Shown: piece by piece, positions 46,565 to 50,666 of the stretch | How positions within the stretch are numbered: position 1 is the stretch's first letter | How the letters are laid out: every line of letters starts with the position of its first letter | Assembly: GCA_014695195.1 (NCBI GenBank) | Contig: JACJNW010000028.1 | Location: 62,001-126,000, forward strand | From: Cyanobacteria bacterium FACHB-DQ100 | Lineage (GTDB): Bacteria; Cyanobacteriota; Cyanobacteriia; Leptolyngbyales; Leptolyngbyaceae | Length of the DNA: 64,000 bases | Reading direction: 5' to 3' | Notes under the pieces: model-generated | Told to the model about the DNA's origin: nothing | The model's database searches: none | The model's input: only the letters and a program-made list of their open reading frames with translations | Position numbers and translations under genes: made by a program

Positions 46565-47602
46565 CTAACCCAGGTTATGAAACTGATTCATGAAAGTTTG
46601 ATCGATCGCATCTTTCATCCGCCACAACAATCGCGATCGCACTCCAAATTTGCCATACGATGCAATTGCCGATCGATCCCCTGTTCCAATTAGGCTAAGA
46701 TAATTGCTCTGCGGATGATAGGCTCTCAGAGGTTGATGGTTCAGCGCAGCAGATAGATTCTGAAACAATGGCTTTCCTTGCCTCACTGCAAACACCCCTG
46801 CTTTTGGACGCTCATAATGAATCATGGTGGCAATATCACCCGCCGCAAACACTTGAGGATGCGACACCGACTGCAAAGCATCATTCACTAAAATAAATCC
46901 TTGTTCATCTACCTTGAGTCCAGATTGCCGAAGCCAATCCGGTGCAGAGGCTTGCGTCACCCAAACGATCGCATCTGCATCAAATCCCTCAACTGCTTCA
47001 ATCACTGCGCCTAAATGCAACTGACTGCCTCGCTGAATCAGCAACTGTTTTAACTGGCGACGCACCCAAGCGTTATGTTTTGGCATAATCTCACGATCGC
47101 GCTGAAATAGATGAATCGTGGTGTTTGGCAAACGATGCTGCATATTTAACGCAAGCTCAACACCGCCTGTTCCGCCCCCGACGATCGCTAACTGTTTAGG
47201 ATTCTTCTGGGCAAACTCATCCCACCACTTGAGAAACTTCGAGATCGGTTTCGCCCCAATTCCTTGCGCTCCTGAAGGAATGTTTGGGGTACTGCCAATA
47301 TCAATCGACACCCAATCAAACTCAATCCGATGGTGCTGACACATAACTTGATTGCGCTCTAAACCAACTGCTCGATCGACAATCAATCGAGCACTAGCAA
47401 ACTCACAGAGCGATCTGAGATTAATATGACATTCTTGATATGAATAAAACCCTGCCACATGACCCGGCAGCATTCCCGAATACGGCGTATCTTCTGCTTC
47501 AGAAATTAAGGTAATTTGCACCCCAACGATCGGATTCAGCCCAAACTGACGCAATGCGATCGCGTGACTGTGTCCTCCTCCGACTAAGACTAACTTTTTC
47601 AT
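46565..47602 (-). CDS. FAD/NAD(P)-dependent oxidoreductase, standalone form of the SelD-fused type
   Basis: 345 residues. FAD-binding LVLVGGGHSHAIALRQFG at the start, NAD(P)-binding LAIVGGGTGGVELAL near 138-152, and the second FAD motif VFAAGDIATM. The start GGGHSH...GMLPGHVAGFYS is that of the N-terminal half of cyanobacterial proteins fused to selenide-water dikinase (SelD). Here the protein ends after WRMKDAIDQTFMNQF, where the SelD half would begin, and no SelD follows. It could act as a type II NADH dehydrogenase-like enzyme. First gene of a three-gene unit. Confidence 0.82.
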   Translation of the reverse strand: MKKLVLVGGGHSHAIALRQFGLNPIVGVQITLISEAEDTPYSGMLPGHVAGFYSYQECHINLRSLCEFASARLIVDRAVGLERNQVMCQHHRIEFDWVSIDIGSTPNIPSGAQGIGAKPISKFLKWWDEFAQKNPKQLAIVGGGTGGVELALNMQHRLPNTTIHLFQRDREIMPKHNAWVRRQLKQLLIQRGSQLHLGAVIEAVEGFDADAIVWVTQASAPDWLRQSGLKVDEQGFILVNDALQSVSHPQVFAAGDIATMIHYERPKAGVFAVRQGKPLFQNLSAALNHQPLRAYHPQSNYLSLIGTGDRSAIASYGKFGVRSRLLWRMKDAIDQTFMNQFHNLG

Positions 47603-47797: not shown

Positions 47798-48487
47798 ATG
47801 AGAAACCGTCACTGGATCACCGCTGGAATTGGACTCTTGCTGTTATCAAGCTGCCAGCCAAACCGCTCTAAACAAGCAACCATACAACCTTCTCCGCAGA
47901 CATTTGCCGAACCGATCGTGCCGCCGCAGCCCAAAGCTTTACCCACACTCAAAGTCCCCGGCATGATCCCAACTTCAGAAACCAAAACTCCGTTGATGCC
48001 AGTCGCAGTTTCTAGCACTCGCGATCCGTTCGCCGCAGCTACTATCCCGACGAATCTCAAAGCCACACTTCAACCCGCCGCTCCCCAATCTGCAACCCCC
48101 TCAAATCGCAATCAACCTGTTGCTCCGATCCCGCAACCGTCGATCGCCTATCGTCCGATCCCCCAACCCGCCCCTCTAAGTGCTCAGCCGCTCCCCGCTC
48201 TGCCGATCGCGGGGACTTCAAACATCGCGCCACCCGCACCCCCGGTATCGCGAACAAACCTAGCAGACGCGATCTCACTCACAGGTGTCATTCAAACTGG
48301 GAGCCAGTTAAGCGCGATCGTGCAAGACACAGACGGCAATTCCCGCTATGTTCAAGTCGGTGAAAGCCTGGCAAATGGGCAAGTCACGGTTAAACGAATC
48401 AATCTCAACTCAGCCGGAAATCCATCGATCGTGCTGGTGCAAAACGGCGTAGAACTCACAAAACTGGTCGGTCAAGCTGAAAGCTGA
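47798..48487 (+). CDS. Proline-rich lipoprotein
   Basis: 229 residues. Lipoprotein signal with lipobox LLSSC, modified Cys19. The middle (about 25-150) is low-complexity Pro/Ala/Gln/Thr. The last 75 residues form a small beta domain (ISLTGVIQTGSQLSAIVQDT, then YVQVGESLANGQVTVKRI) resembling PilP-type or GspC-type modules that dock in pilus/secretion envelopes; this is a suggestion only. A long disordered spacer with a terminal domain suits a role across the periplasm. No pilus genes adjacent. Confidence 0.75.
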   Translation: MRNRHWITAGIGLLLLSSCQPNRSKQATIQPSPQTFAEPIVPPQPKALPTLKVPGMIPTSETKTPLMPVAVSSTRDPFAAATIPTNLKATLQPAAPQSATPSNRNQPVAPIPQPSIAYRPIPQPAPLSAQPLPALPIAGTSNIAPPAPPVSRTNLADAISLTGVIQTGSQLSAIVQDTDGNSRYVQVGESLANGQVTVKRINLNSAGNPSIVLVQNGVELTKLVGQAES

Positions 48488-48603
48488 TCGAACCAAAAAC
48501 CTGGTAGTGCGGATGTCTTGCCCGACATCGAACAACCCCTAAACCTCGCAATGGGGGTCTCCGACCCTCGCCTTATTCGCAGAATTGCTACATTGAAAGC
48601 ATC

Positions 48604-48624
48604 TAGAGTTAGGTGCTAACTCTA
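48604..48624. promoter_or_regulatory. Perfect 9-bp inverted repeat upstream of the DDOR-like gene
   Basis: TAGAGTTAG and CTAACTCTA flank a 3-nt centre, ending 31 bases before the ATG at 48656. It could be an operator for a dimeric regulator or a hairpin in the 5' leader. Further upstream (near 48512-48525) a weaker GATGTC/GACATC repeat lies in a sequence type often repeated between cyanobacterial genes. Confidence 0.5.
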
Positions 48625-48655
48625 CACTGAGAATGCCACATTCAAGAGATCAGAT

Positions 48656-49672
48656 ATGAAGCTTTCCAGAAAGACGCTCGAACAAAAGCTCGATCACGTT
48701 TACGATGTCATCATTGTCGGTGGAGGTGCAGGTGGACTCTCCGCAGCCATCTATCTCCAACGCTATCGGCTCTCTTGCCTCGTCATCGAAAAAGGTCGCG
48801 GTCGATCGTTCTGGATGCAAGAGCTGCAAAACTATCTTGGTCTTCCTGCGGGAACTCCCGGACGAATGCTGCTGCAACAGGGTCAAAATCACTTTCTCTC
48901 GCTCGGTGGCGACTACCTCATGGGCTATGTCGAAGCAGTCCAAGACGAGGGAGACACCTTCGCGGTTAAAGCCAAAGTCGGCAAACAAGATAGTAGCTAT
49001 CCCGTGTTCCGATCGAAATACGTCATCGCTGCCAGCGGCATCATTGATCATCTGCCCAAACTCGAAGATATGCAGAACGTTTTTGACTATGCAGGGCATA
49101 ATCTGCACGTTTGCATGATCTGCGACGGTTGGGAAATGGCAGATACGAAATGCGGCTTATTTGCAGGGACAGAAGGCGCAATCAATACCGCTTTCGTGCT
49201 CAACTGGTTCACGCCCTACATTACCGTATTCACTCAGGGCTTATTTGAGGTCAGCGATGAGATGCGCGAGAAGCTCAGATCGCACGGTTATCCATTAATC
49301 GAAACACCCCTGAAGCGATTTATCGGACACGACCACGAAATGACCGGAGTTGAACTGGTAGATGGCAGCACGATCGAGCTTCAGACCGGACTCGTGGCAA
49401 TGGGTTCGCATTATTACAATGCCTACTTACAGGGCTTGGATCTTAAGTGGAAAGGCGGCAATTTGGTCACAGACGAGATGTGCCGTACCTCACATCCTAG
49501 AATTTTTGCGATCGGAGACTTAAAAGAGGGGTTAAATCAAGTATCAATTGCGGTTGCAGATGGTACATTGGCGGCAACTGCAATCTGGCGAGACATTCGC
49601 CGCTCGTCTCCTCCGCGATTATGGGAGGAAAACCTCAACTTGATTACCCCAAAGGGAGTACCTGTCTCGTGA
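48656..49672 (+). CDS. Thioredoxin-reductase-like flavoprotein, DDOR-type (diflavin-linked disulfide oxidoreductase)
   Basis: 338 residues. FAD motif VIIVGGGAGGLSAAIYL at 18-34, redox disulfide Cys153/Cys156 in HVCMICDGWE (thioredoxin reductases have CATC), and the second FAD motif IFAIGDLKEGLNQV. The NADPH site is missing: where reductases have GxGxxA and HRR, this protein has FAGTEGAINTA and VFTQGLF. Loss of NADPH binding with a kept disulfide is the hallmark of the DDOR enzymes described from Gloeobacter and Synechocystis, which hold two FADs and run in the oxidising direction. The next gene overlaps its stop (GTGA). Confidence 0.85.
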   Translation: MKLSRKTLEQKLDHVYDVIIVGGGAGGLSAAIYLQRYRLSCLVIEKGRGRSFWMQELQNYLGLPAGTPGRMLLQQGQNHFLSLGGDYLMGYVEAVQDEGDTFAVKAKVGKQDSSYPVFRSKYVIAASGIIDHLPKLEDMQNVFDYAGHNLHVCMICDGWEMADTKCGLFAGTEGAINTAFVLNWFTPYITVFTQGLFEVSDEMREKLRSHGYPLIETPLKRFIGHDHEMTGVELVDGSTIELQTGLVAMGSHYYNAYLQGLDLKWKGGNLVTDEMCRTSHPRIFAIGDLKEGLNQVSIAVADGTLAATAIWRDIRRSSPPRLWEENLNLITPKGVPVS

Positions 49673-50226
49673 TTCAAATCGATGCTTCTCACGCCCAACA
49701 GATCCACGCAGAAAATCTTCGCCTCCAAGAAGAGCTGCAAATGCGCGATCAGCTCGTGCAGCAGTTGTCTCAAGAACTGTTTCGCTTAGTCAAAGGCAAC
49801 GCGACCGCACCTGCTCCGGAAGATGACGACAAGAGCGATCGCCATCTTGCAGAAGTCCAATCGCTGCGGGATGAGCTTCAAACCGTAGAACAGCAAGTAA
49901 CGTTTTACCAAGAGCAGATTACAGAGCGCGATCGCGAGATTTACGAACTGCGGCAGACTACCCAGGAATTAACGGAGCGCTCTAAAATGCTGGAGCAAGT
50001 CGTACAAGAGCTACCCAAAGTTTACCGCCAGAAGTTTGCCGAGCGAATGCAGCCTGTGCGGGAAAAAGTGGCAATGATTCAGCGCGAAAATCGCCAACTT
50101 CACGCCGAATTGCAGAGCGTCAACTACCGTCTTGCCGTGAAAAATCGCCGCAACGGACACCTAGATTTGCCTTCTTTTCCACGGGAAGAGGGTGAGATTT
50201 CGCTGCCCAGTTTTGGGAATGCTTAG
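49669..50226 (+). CDS. Coiled-coil protein coupled to the DDOR-like gene
   Basis: 185 residues from GTG at 49669, which overlaps the preceding stop by four bases (GTGA) and has GGGAG ten bases upstream. Nearly all of it is coiled coil (about 5-45 and 60-160, LRDELQTVEQQVTFYQEQI, MIQRENRQLHAELQSV), with an acidic break (EDDDKSDRH) and a short tail ending PSFPREEGEISLPSFG. No enzyme domain or signal peptide. Tight coupling suggests a partner or scaffold for the flavoprotein; this is not shown. Confidence 0.82.
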   Translation: MIQIDASHAQQIHAENLRLQEELQMRDQLVQQLSQELFRLVKGNATAPAPEDDDKSDRHLAEVQSLRDELQTVEQQVTFYQEQITERDREIYELRQTTQELTERSKMLEQVVQELPKVYRQKFAERMQPVREKVAMIQRENRQLHAELQSVNYRLAVKNRRNGHLDLPSFPREEGEISLPSFGNA

Positions 50227-50253
50227 AGTAGATTTCTAACGCAATTCATTCAT

Positions 50254-50300
50254 AAAGCCCCCACAGATTCAAGGCTGTGAGGGCTTTTTGCTTTTTTAGC
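50254..50300 (+). terminator. Factor-independent terminator after the coiled-coil gene
   Basis: AGCCCCCACAG and CTGTGAGGGCT form an 11-bp stem with one mismatch and an 8-nt loop, directly followed by TTTTT and a second T run (GCTTTTTT). It lies 30 bp past the stop at 50226 and before the convergent STAS gene. Confidence 0.85.
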
Positions 50301-50309
50301 AATCGCGGC

Positions 50310-50666
50310 TCAAGCAGCTTGCAGCACTGCTTGAGGTTGAACGATCGATCTCAAAATTGCCTCATCATTCTCGTAGATCGCAAACACGCGATCGAGCTGC
50401 GTGATCTCAAAAATCAATCGAGTTGCGGGACGTAATCCACAAAACACCAATGTTGCGTCCGATTGTGCGGCTGTTTTCCACCCGGCTACTAAGGTCACTA
50501 ATCCCGCACTGTCGATAAATTCAATACTCGATAGATCAACGACCCATAGTTTGTAGCGGCGACACACTAGCGTTGTCCATTGTTGCTGCAACGCTTCACC
50601 GCCTGCCGTATCTAGCTGACCTTGAGGTCGTAGCACAATCACTTCATGCTGCTCAATTAACGTCAT
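50310..50666 (-). CDS. STAS-domain anti-sigma factor antagonist-like protein
   Basis: 118 residues from the ATG at 50666 (MTLIEQHEVIV), chosen for GAGGAG upstream; eleven codons above it are open. One STAS domain: VIVLRPQGQLDTAGG, LWVVDLSSIEFIDSAGLVTL with the phosphorylatable Ser of the DSAG loop, and the C-terminal helix. Such proteins switch anti-sigma kinases or phosphatases by partner exchange. No kinase or phosphatase partner is adjacent. Confidence 0.9.
   Translation of the reverse strand: MTLIEQHEVIVLRPQGQLDTAGGEALQQQWTTLVCRRYKLWVVDLSSIEFIDSAGLVTLVAGWKTAAQSDATLVFCGLRPATRLIFEITQLDRVFAIYENDEAILRSIVQPQAVLQAA

Follow-up and report, generated by a model that had tools for sequence, protein, structure and literature searches.

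The window analysed here is a stretch of 64,000 nucleotides from Cyanobacteria bacterium FACHB-DQ100. Two co-oriented genes overlap on its forward strand (Table 1). The first encodes a flavoprotein of 338 amino acids of the diflavin-linked disulfide oxidoreductase (DDOR) type, and the second a helical protein, hereafter called CC. Their junction, already pointed out in a preliminary description of this DNA, is indeed a GTGA in which the start codon of CC runs over the stop codon of DDOR. The product of the upstream neighbour on the same strand (47798-48487) is rich in proline and lipoprotein-like, and its match to T2SSC stays under the Pfam cut-off. A second flavoprotein, of the pyridine-nucleotide-disulfide-oxidoreductase type, is encoded close by on the opposite strand (46565-47602).

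Table 1. Features of the DDOR-CC locus, with positions in the window.
Feature	Position	Strand	Basis
DDOR (diflavin-linked disulfide oxidoreductase), clade A	48656..49672	+	phmmer vs PDB; tree of 104 rows
Codons of the CMIC redox disulfide (C153, C156)	49112..49123	+	sequence; conservation in 103 DDOR rows
GGGAG, Shine-Dalgarno-like, within the 3' end of DDOR	49654..49658	+	10 nt before the CC start
GTGA overlap (GTG start of CC over TGA stop of DDOR)	49669..49672	+	sequence
CC, cysteine-free helical protein, 185 aa, NF045622	49669..50226	+	233 bits vs cut-off 125; AlphaFold
Likely intrinsic terminator hairpin behind CC	50254..50287	+	-17.9 kcal/mol, z -3.83, then T runs

The preliminary description considered the flavoprotein to be DDOR-like, and both database matches and phylogeny agree with this view. 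In a phmmer search of the PDB, the window protein best matched Slr0600 (5jri/5k0a, 9.8e-148) and Gll2934 (5n0j/5ode, 2.9e-134), the next match after these two DDORs being found only at 4.7e-30. In a tree of 104 rows, which omitted L147, L163, L165, L168, any row shorter than 290 aa and further loci of the already represented genus and family, DDOR rows grouped with 100/100 support against two distant outgroup rows, the solved DDORs themselves not being among the rows. The motifs also read as first described, with the CMIC disulfide kept and the NADPH motifs lost. CMIC occupies residues 153-156, with conservation of 98% or more for each cysteine in 103 DDOR rows, and the FAD motif GxGxxG is present (G22, G24 and G27). 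The NADPH motif GxGxxA/G is replaced by AGTEGA at residues 170-175, as placed by eye against thioredoxin reductase alignments, and a by-eye reading found no HRR motif downstream of it. The thioredoxin-binding motifs GR/KG and FF stand before and after CxxC, and both are absent near the CxxC of the window DDOR, where the sequence reads AGHNLHVCMICDGWE. These NADPH and thioredoxin-binding motifs are those given in PMC9025218. Judged from its sequence, the first gene encodes a true DDOR. By analogy with its relatives, the enzyme most likely exchanges electrons with thiols through CxxC and relays them via two FADs, without NADPH. In the literature consulted, DDOR is presented as probably an oxidase that may relate to TrxC in function (PMC6262485), glutathione as a possible donor with a Synechocystis mutant being sensitive to oxidative stress (PMC9025218), and the mechanism and partners of the enzyme are called open.

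The second protein belongs to the NCBIfam family NF045622 (Npun_F5560 family), scoring 233.4 bits against the curated cut-off of 125 over positions 2-156 of the 156-position profile. A literature search for the name Npun_F5560 found nothing. According to the AlphaFold model (mean pLDDT 86, pTM 0.47), CC would be made of helices spanning residues 3-43 and 53-163. Such long helices fit part of the earlier view that the protein is almost entirely coiled coil, but a 3.5-residue repeat is evident solely in residues 53-115 of the window CC. Since the best conserved part, LPxxYRxKFxER at about residues 115-126, lies where this repeat is not seen, CC probably amounts to more than a simple coil. Within the genus, purifying selection acts on both genes, as judged from 28 pairs from its 8 genomes, in which synonymous sites are near saturation (mean dN/dS of 0.055 for DDOR and 0.044 for CC, mean dS of 0.96 and 1.46, respectively). 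From its adjacency, CC could be thought to serve DDOR as a redox substrate or as a thiol acceptor of electrons. However, the window CC has no cysteine, and neither have 45 of the 48 CCs of the named pairs considered below nor 101 of the 108 distinct CC proteins of full length. With no conserved thiol to oxidise, CC was ruled out as a thiol substrate of DDOR, and a role as thiol electron acceptor is close to refuted.

The stop codon of DDOR and the start codon of CC overlap by 4 or 1 nt in all 8 loci of the genus (G000-G007), in which GGAG is kept before the CC start (GGAAG in one of 8). In the named pairs, an overlap of 4 or 1 nt was observed in 24 of 48, while the other 24 have gaps of 8 to 298 nt. 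GTG is the start codon of CC in 67 of 84 paired rows and in 54 of 69 unpaired rows, these rows being partly redundant, and as CC uses GTG also in unpaired loci, the overlap required no new start codon. Behind CC lies a terminator-like hairpin (Table 1), and in a simple pattern scan that performs at chance level (2 terminators found in the region for 2.2 expected), none was listed on the forward strand between DDOR and CC. The region 48480-50400 gave no match to a sigma-70-like promoter, for 1.4 expected by chance. We infer that the two genes may be co-transcribed in the window organism. A junction of this kind could also be kept by pure hitchhiking, in which DDOR landed upstream of CC and the two have become hard to part, since translation or transcription of CC would now depend on DDOR, with no shared function. 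The Shine-Dalgarno-like site of the window CC, located within DDOR, and the GTG start kept in unpaired loci are in line with this explanation. Against it, the half of the named pairs devoid of overlap are still linked.

The conservation of the pair was surveyed in 74 named loci returned by a search with the DDOR protein, 50 of which form clade A, i.e., have a DDOR at least 74% identical to that of the window (L147 and L163, with a broken DDOR, being assigned by their 76% identity and not by the tree). In 48 of these 50 loci, CC is the next gene 3' of DDOR and shares its strand. CC is missing from L104, whose contig stops 62 bp past the end of the DDOR gene, and from L137, where none lies within 6 kb. 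Phormidesmis priestleyi is one isolate with the pair. Outside clade A, the pair was found in none of 24 named loci, among which L165 ends 3 bp past its DDOR match, too early for a judgement, and L157 has 1280 bp downstream. In a sample of 20 genomes of relatives, the pair is present in all 13 members of the window's family and in G017. DDOR and CC are both present but apart in G014 and G018, DDOR is accompanied by a separate CC match below the cut-off in G016, CC occurs on its own in G019, and neither gene occurs in G013 and G015, whose DDOR-search matches are distant homologues (26-28%). On the scale of the phylum (386 genomes), DDOR was detected at 1e-60 in 41 genomes, CC over the cut-off in 94 and both in 27. 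The two genes are adjacent in 8 of the 41 DDOR genomes, i.e., in 8 of the 27 with both, and apart in the remaining 19. CC over the cut-off is absent from 14 of the 41 DDOR genomes, 4 of which have a weaker match of 67-99 bits. Conversely, 67 of the 94 CC genomes are without DDOR at 1e-60. None of the 14 control genomes has CC over the cut-off; below it, the family search matches the Thermus and Sulfolobus controls and gives many weak matches in other families, e.g., f35. Because weak matches come with generic helices, only those over the cut-off were counted, with the exception of short forms in family f2.

The pairing that the preliminary description had proposed for a neighbour survey is thus conserved within clade A, where a lack of conservation is no argument against it, but neither in the other named loci nor in most DDOR genomes of the phylum. 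The proposal that CC is a scaffold for DDOR in general fails on the genomes that hold the genes apart and on those with DDOR and no CC over the cut-off. CC was likewise rejected as a universal DDOR partner, the two genes being mostly apart in the phylum sample. As the pairing is restricted to one clade, it points to a clade-specific two-gene unit and not to a general DDOR scaffold.

CC is older than its pairing with DDOR, being a neighbour of rpsF in many cyanobacteria without an adjacent DDOR. One gene order seen repeatedly starts with Tic20, FAH (on the opposite strand), rpsF and CC, and continues with U1 or STAS (on the opposite strand) and DedA; unpaired CC genes often lie directly behind rpsF. 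In family f2, which has small genomes and which we take to be picocyanobacteria, a weak CC match was found in 32 genomes, with rpsF upstream in all 13 loci fetched; rpsF also precedes CC in L214, of family f17. The CC relatives behind rpsF in family f2 (L215-L225, L227, L228) are short, with about 100-180 aa. In Nostoc sp. PCC 7120, PMC10287535 tabulates rpsF-all4801 as one transcription unit, and from gene order all4801 would be CC. A literature search for an rps6 operon with a coiled-coil protein in cyanobacteria found nothing. In clade A, DDOR lies directly behind rpsF wherever rpsF is present, namely in 35 of the 50 named loci; these include L104, where the contig ends ahead of CC. The window's genome carries rpsF on another contig, with Tic20 and FAH. 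A trace of the rpsF-DDOR-CC order is seen in G018, in which rpsF and CC flank what remains of a broken DDOR (about residues 271-318; L187, G018:C7; also L004), while another DDOR is kept elsewhere in the genome. This order was hence once present in G018, which retained CC after the decay of DDOR. A search of 90 unpaired CC rows, which are partly redundant and two of which are from G018, revealed such a remnant in this genome only.

On the other side of CC, a protein of about 237 aa, U1, is encoded 3' of CC in many cyanobacteria (L001:2020-2730 and 45 aligned relatives), and overlaps the end of CC in several loci, e.g., L099 and L207. No match in Pfam or NCBIfam was obtained at 0.001 with the L170 member. 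The AlphaFold model of U1 (pLDDT 93) has a small ATP-grasp-like fold, with PurT and PurK as top Foldseek matches. RimK is an ATP-grasp ligase that modifies S6. As Foldseek ranks PurT and PurK first, the likeness of the rpsF-near U1 to RimK is not pressed. A search that detects U1 in 4 of 5 genomes from elsewhere in the family gave no U1 in the 8 genomes of the genus.

In the DDOR tree, the 53 rows with the pair all group in a single clade (98/98), together with L104, L137 and B2, an unpaired clade of 13 rows that is nested in or sister to the paired clade, the forks around A and B2 being open with unsettled bootstrap. Within clade A (55 tree rows), the link to CC held in 53 of 54 scored rows, with 1 change at the fewest. 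The rpsF link held in 34 of 52 scored rows (at the fewest 11 changes) and the U1 link in 26 of 48 (at the fewest 12 changes). These numbers of changes come from a single gene tree and from a sample found by DDOR, so that losses of DDOR itself are not included, and the number for U1 would be too high if divergent U1 genes had been missed. By this measure, the DDOR-CC junction is more stable than the links on either side of it. This is the best evidence for selection on joint production of the two proteins, which we infer without implying contact between them. Chance adjacency was rejected on this stability and on the conservation in clade A.

Paired and unpaired sequences were also compared. 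In an alignment made of P0002 and 69 members of a chosen set of 91, from which 13 short or divergent rows were dropped to leave 57 of 70, a sole CC column was pair-specific, with R in 23 of 26 rows from pairs and in 8 of 31 rows without DDOR next to CC; the window has Q. In DDOR, 13 positions mark clade A against B1, of which 11 are common to the unpaired B2. This single weak column, together with the separation of the two genes in most sampled genomes having both, speaks for pure hitchhiking, whereas the neighbouring junctions, which broke many more times than DDOR-CC, speak against it. Pure hitchhiking is a serious rival, although we would rather bet against it.

We find it somewhat probable that DDOR and CC form a clade-specific two-gene unit, in which DDOR is co-produced with a non-redox helical partner or with a co-regulated neighbour. 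The DDOR gene would have arrived just upstream of CC within the older rpsF-CC arrangement, and would then have stayed joined to it, half of the named pairs overlapping, so that both proteins may be made together. CC would most likely be a helical non-redox partner or a co-regulated neighbour whose own job predates the pairing. The small share of DDOR genomes in the phylum sample with an adjacent CC (8 of 41, with 14 of 41 devoid of CC over the cut-off), the sole pair-specific CC column and the lack of a sigma-70-like promoter count against this reading. This estimate does not require contact, and includes the case in which CC of clade A physically binds and places the DDOR dimer, e.g., near ribosomes or the membrane. 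The far steadier DDOR-CC junction is consistent with such an adaptor, coupled stop and start codons would favour assembly during translation, and the predicted long helices of CC resemble those of many adaptors. However, the only pair-specific CC column is absent from the window, most of the DDOR positions marking clade A are shared with an unpaired clade, and DDOR is present without CC in other clades. Physical binding is hence regarded as an unlikely form of the two-gene unit.

DDOR genes of other clades were found in different settings, as counted within about 6 kb. In clade A (50 loci), rpsF occurs in 35 loci, CC in 48 and U1 in 23, with no PrxII, PerR, SQR-like, ArsR or rhodanese gene. 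In B1 (24 loci), PrxII was found in 15 loci, PerR in 11 and ArsR in 1, SQR-like and rhodanese genes in none. These counts agree with the PrxII/PerR setting of DDOR reported in PMC9025218. PrxII occurs in 1 of four additional loci that group on the tree with two Gloeobacterales records, and rpsF, CC, U1, PrxII, PerR, SQR-like, ArsR and rhodanese genes are all absent from two loci of family f5. In B2 (13 loci), an SQR-like flavoprotein was found in 8 loci, ArsR in 7 and rhodanese in 8, with neither PrxII nor PerR, the models of the first three being seeded from B2 neighbours, which favours finding them there. Moreover, 4 of the 8 SQR-like loci are from one genus and 2 from another, and some flanks are short. 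Loci L231-L240 illustrate this frequent proximity. The SQR-like protein reaches 109 bits for a cut-off of 525 in its best model. A relative of it (L230:5588-6805) is encoded in the window's genome, two predicted genes from rpsF, and the seed was built without one SQR-like relative in L230. The B2 context suggests a sulfide or persulfide role of DDOR, and such a sulfide-like setting would fit a glutathione or persulfide role of the enzyme. One literature search that combined DDOR, sulfide and cyanobacteria gave no result, and the words sulfide, rpsF and coiled-coil do not occur in the main text of PMC9025218. Clade-specific contexts provide separate, testable settings for DDOR. In a bolder reading, which we hold to be improbable, CC would be a dedicated non-redox adaptor that catches DDOR during translation and links its disulfide chemistry to an earlier role of CC beside rpsF, while sister clades would use DDOR in PrxII/PerR peroxide defence and in sulfide or persulfide metabolism. 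If true, one NADPH-free thiol oxidoreductase would be a module in three different thiol and sulfur stress circuits.

Compared with known systems, the window DDOR shares its flavoprotein superfamily and CxxC with the FFTR/DTR and NTR thioredoxin reductases, but, unlike them, is devoid of thioredoxin-binding motifs; thioredoxin reductases of solved structure match it at 4.7e-30 or worse, whereas DDORs do so at 1e-134 or better. CC, for its part, has the same rpsF neighbourhood as unpaired NF045622 members, and differs from them by the DDOR gene directly upstream. Slr0600 (5JRI, 5K0A) and Gll2934/GvDDOR (5N0J, 5ODE) are of the same family as the window DDOR, which is 67% identical to the Synechocystis salina form, with CxxC and the FAD motif kept and the NADPH and thioredoxin-binding motifs likewise lost. 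Unlike these two enzymes, the window DDOR belongs to clade A and to an rpsF-CC setting instead of the reported PrxII/PerR setting. The DDOR-CC pair offers one concrete partner candidate for one clade of the family, a partner that is very unlikely to act as a thiol acceptor.
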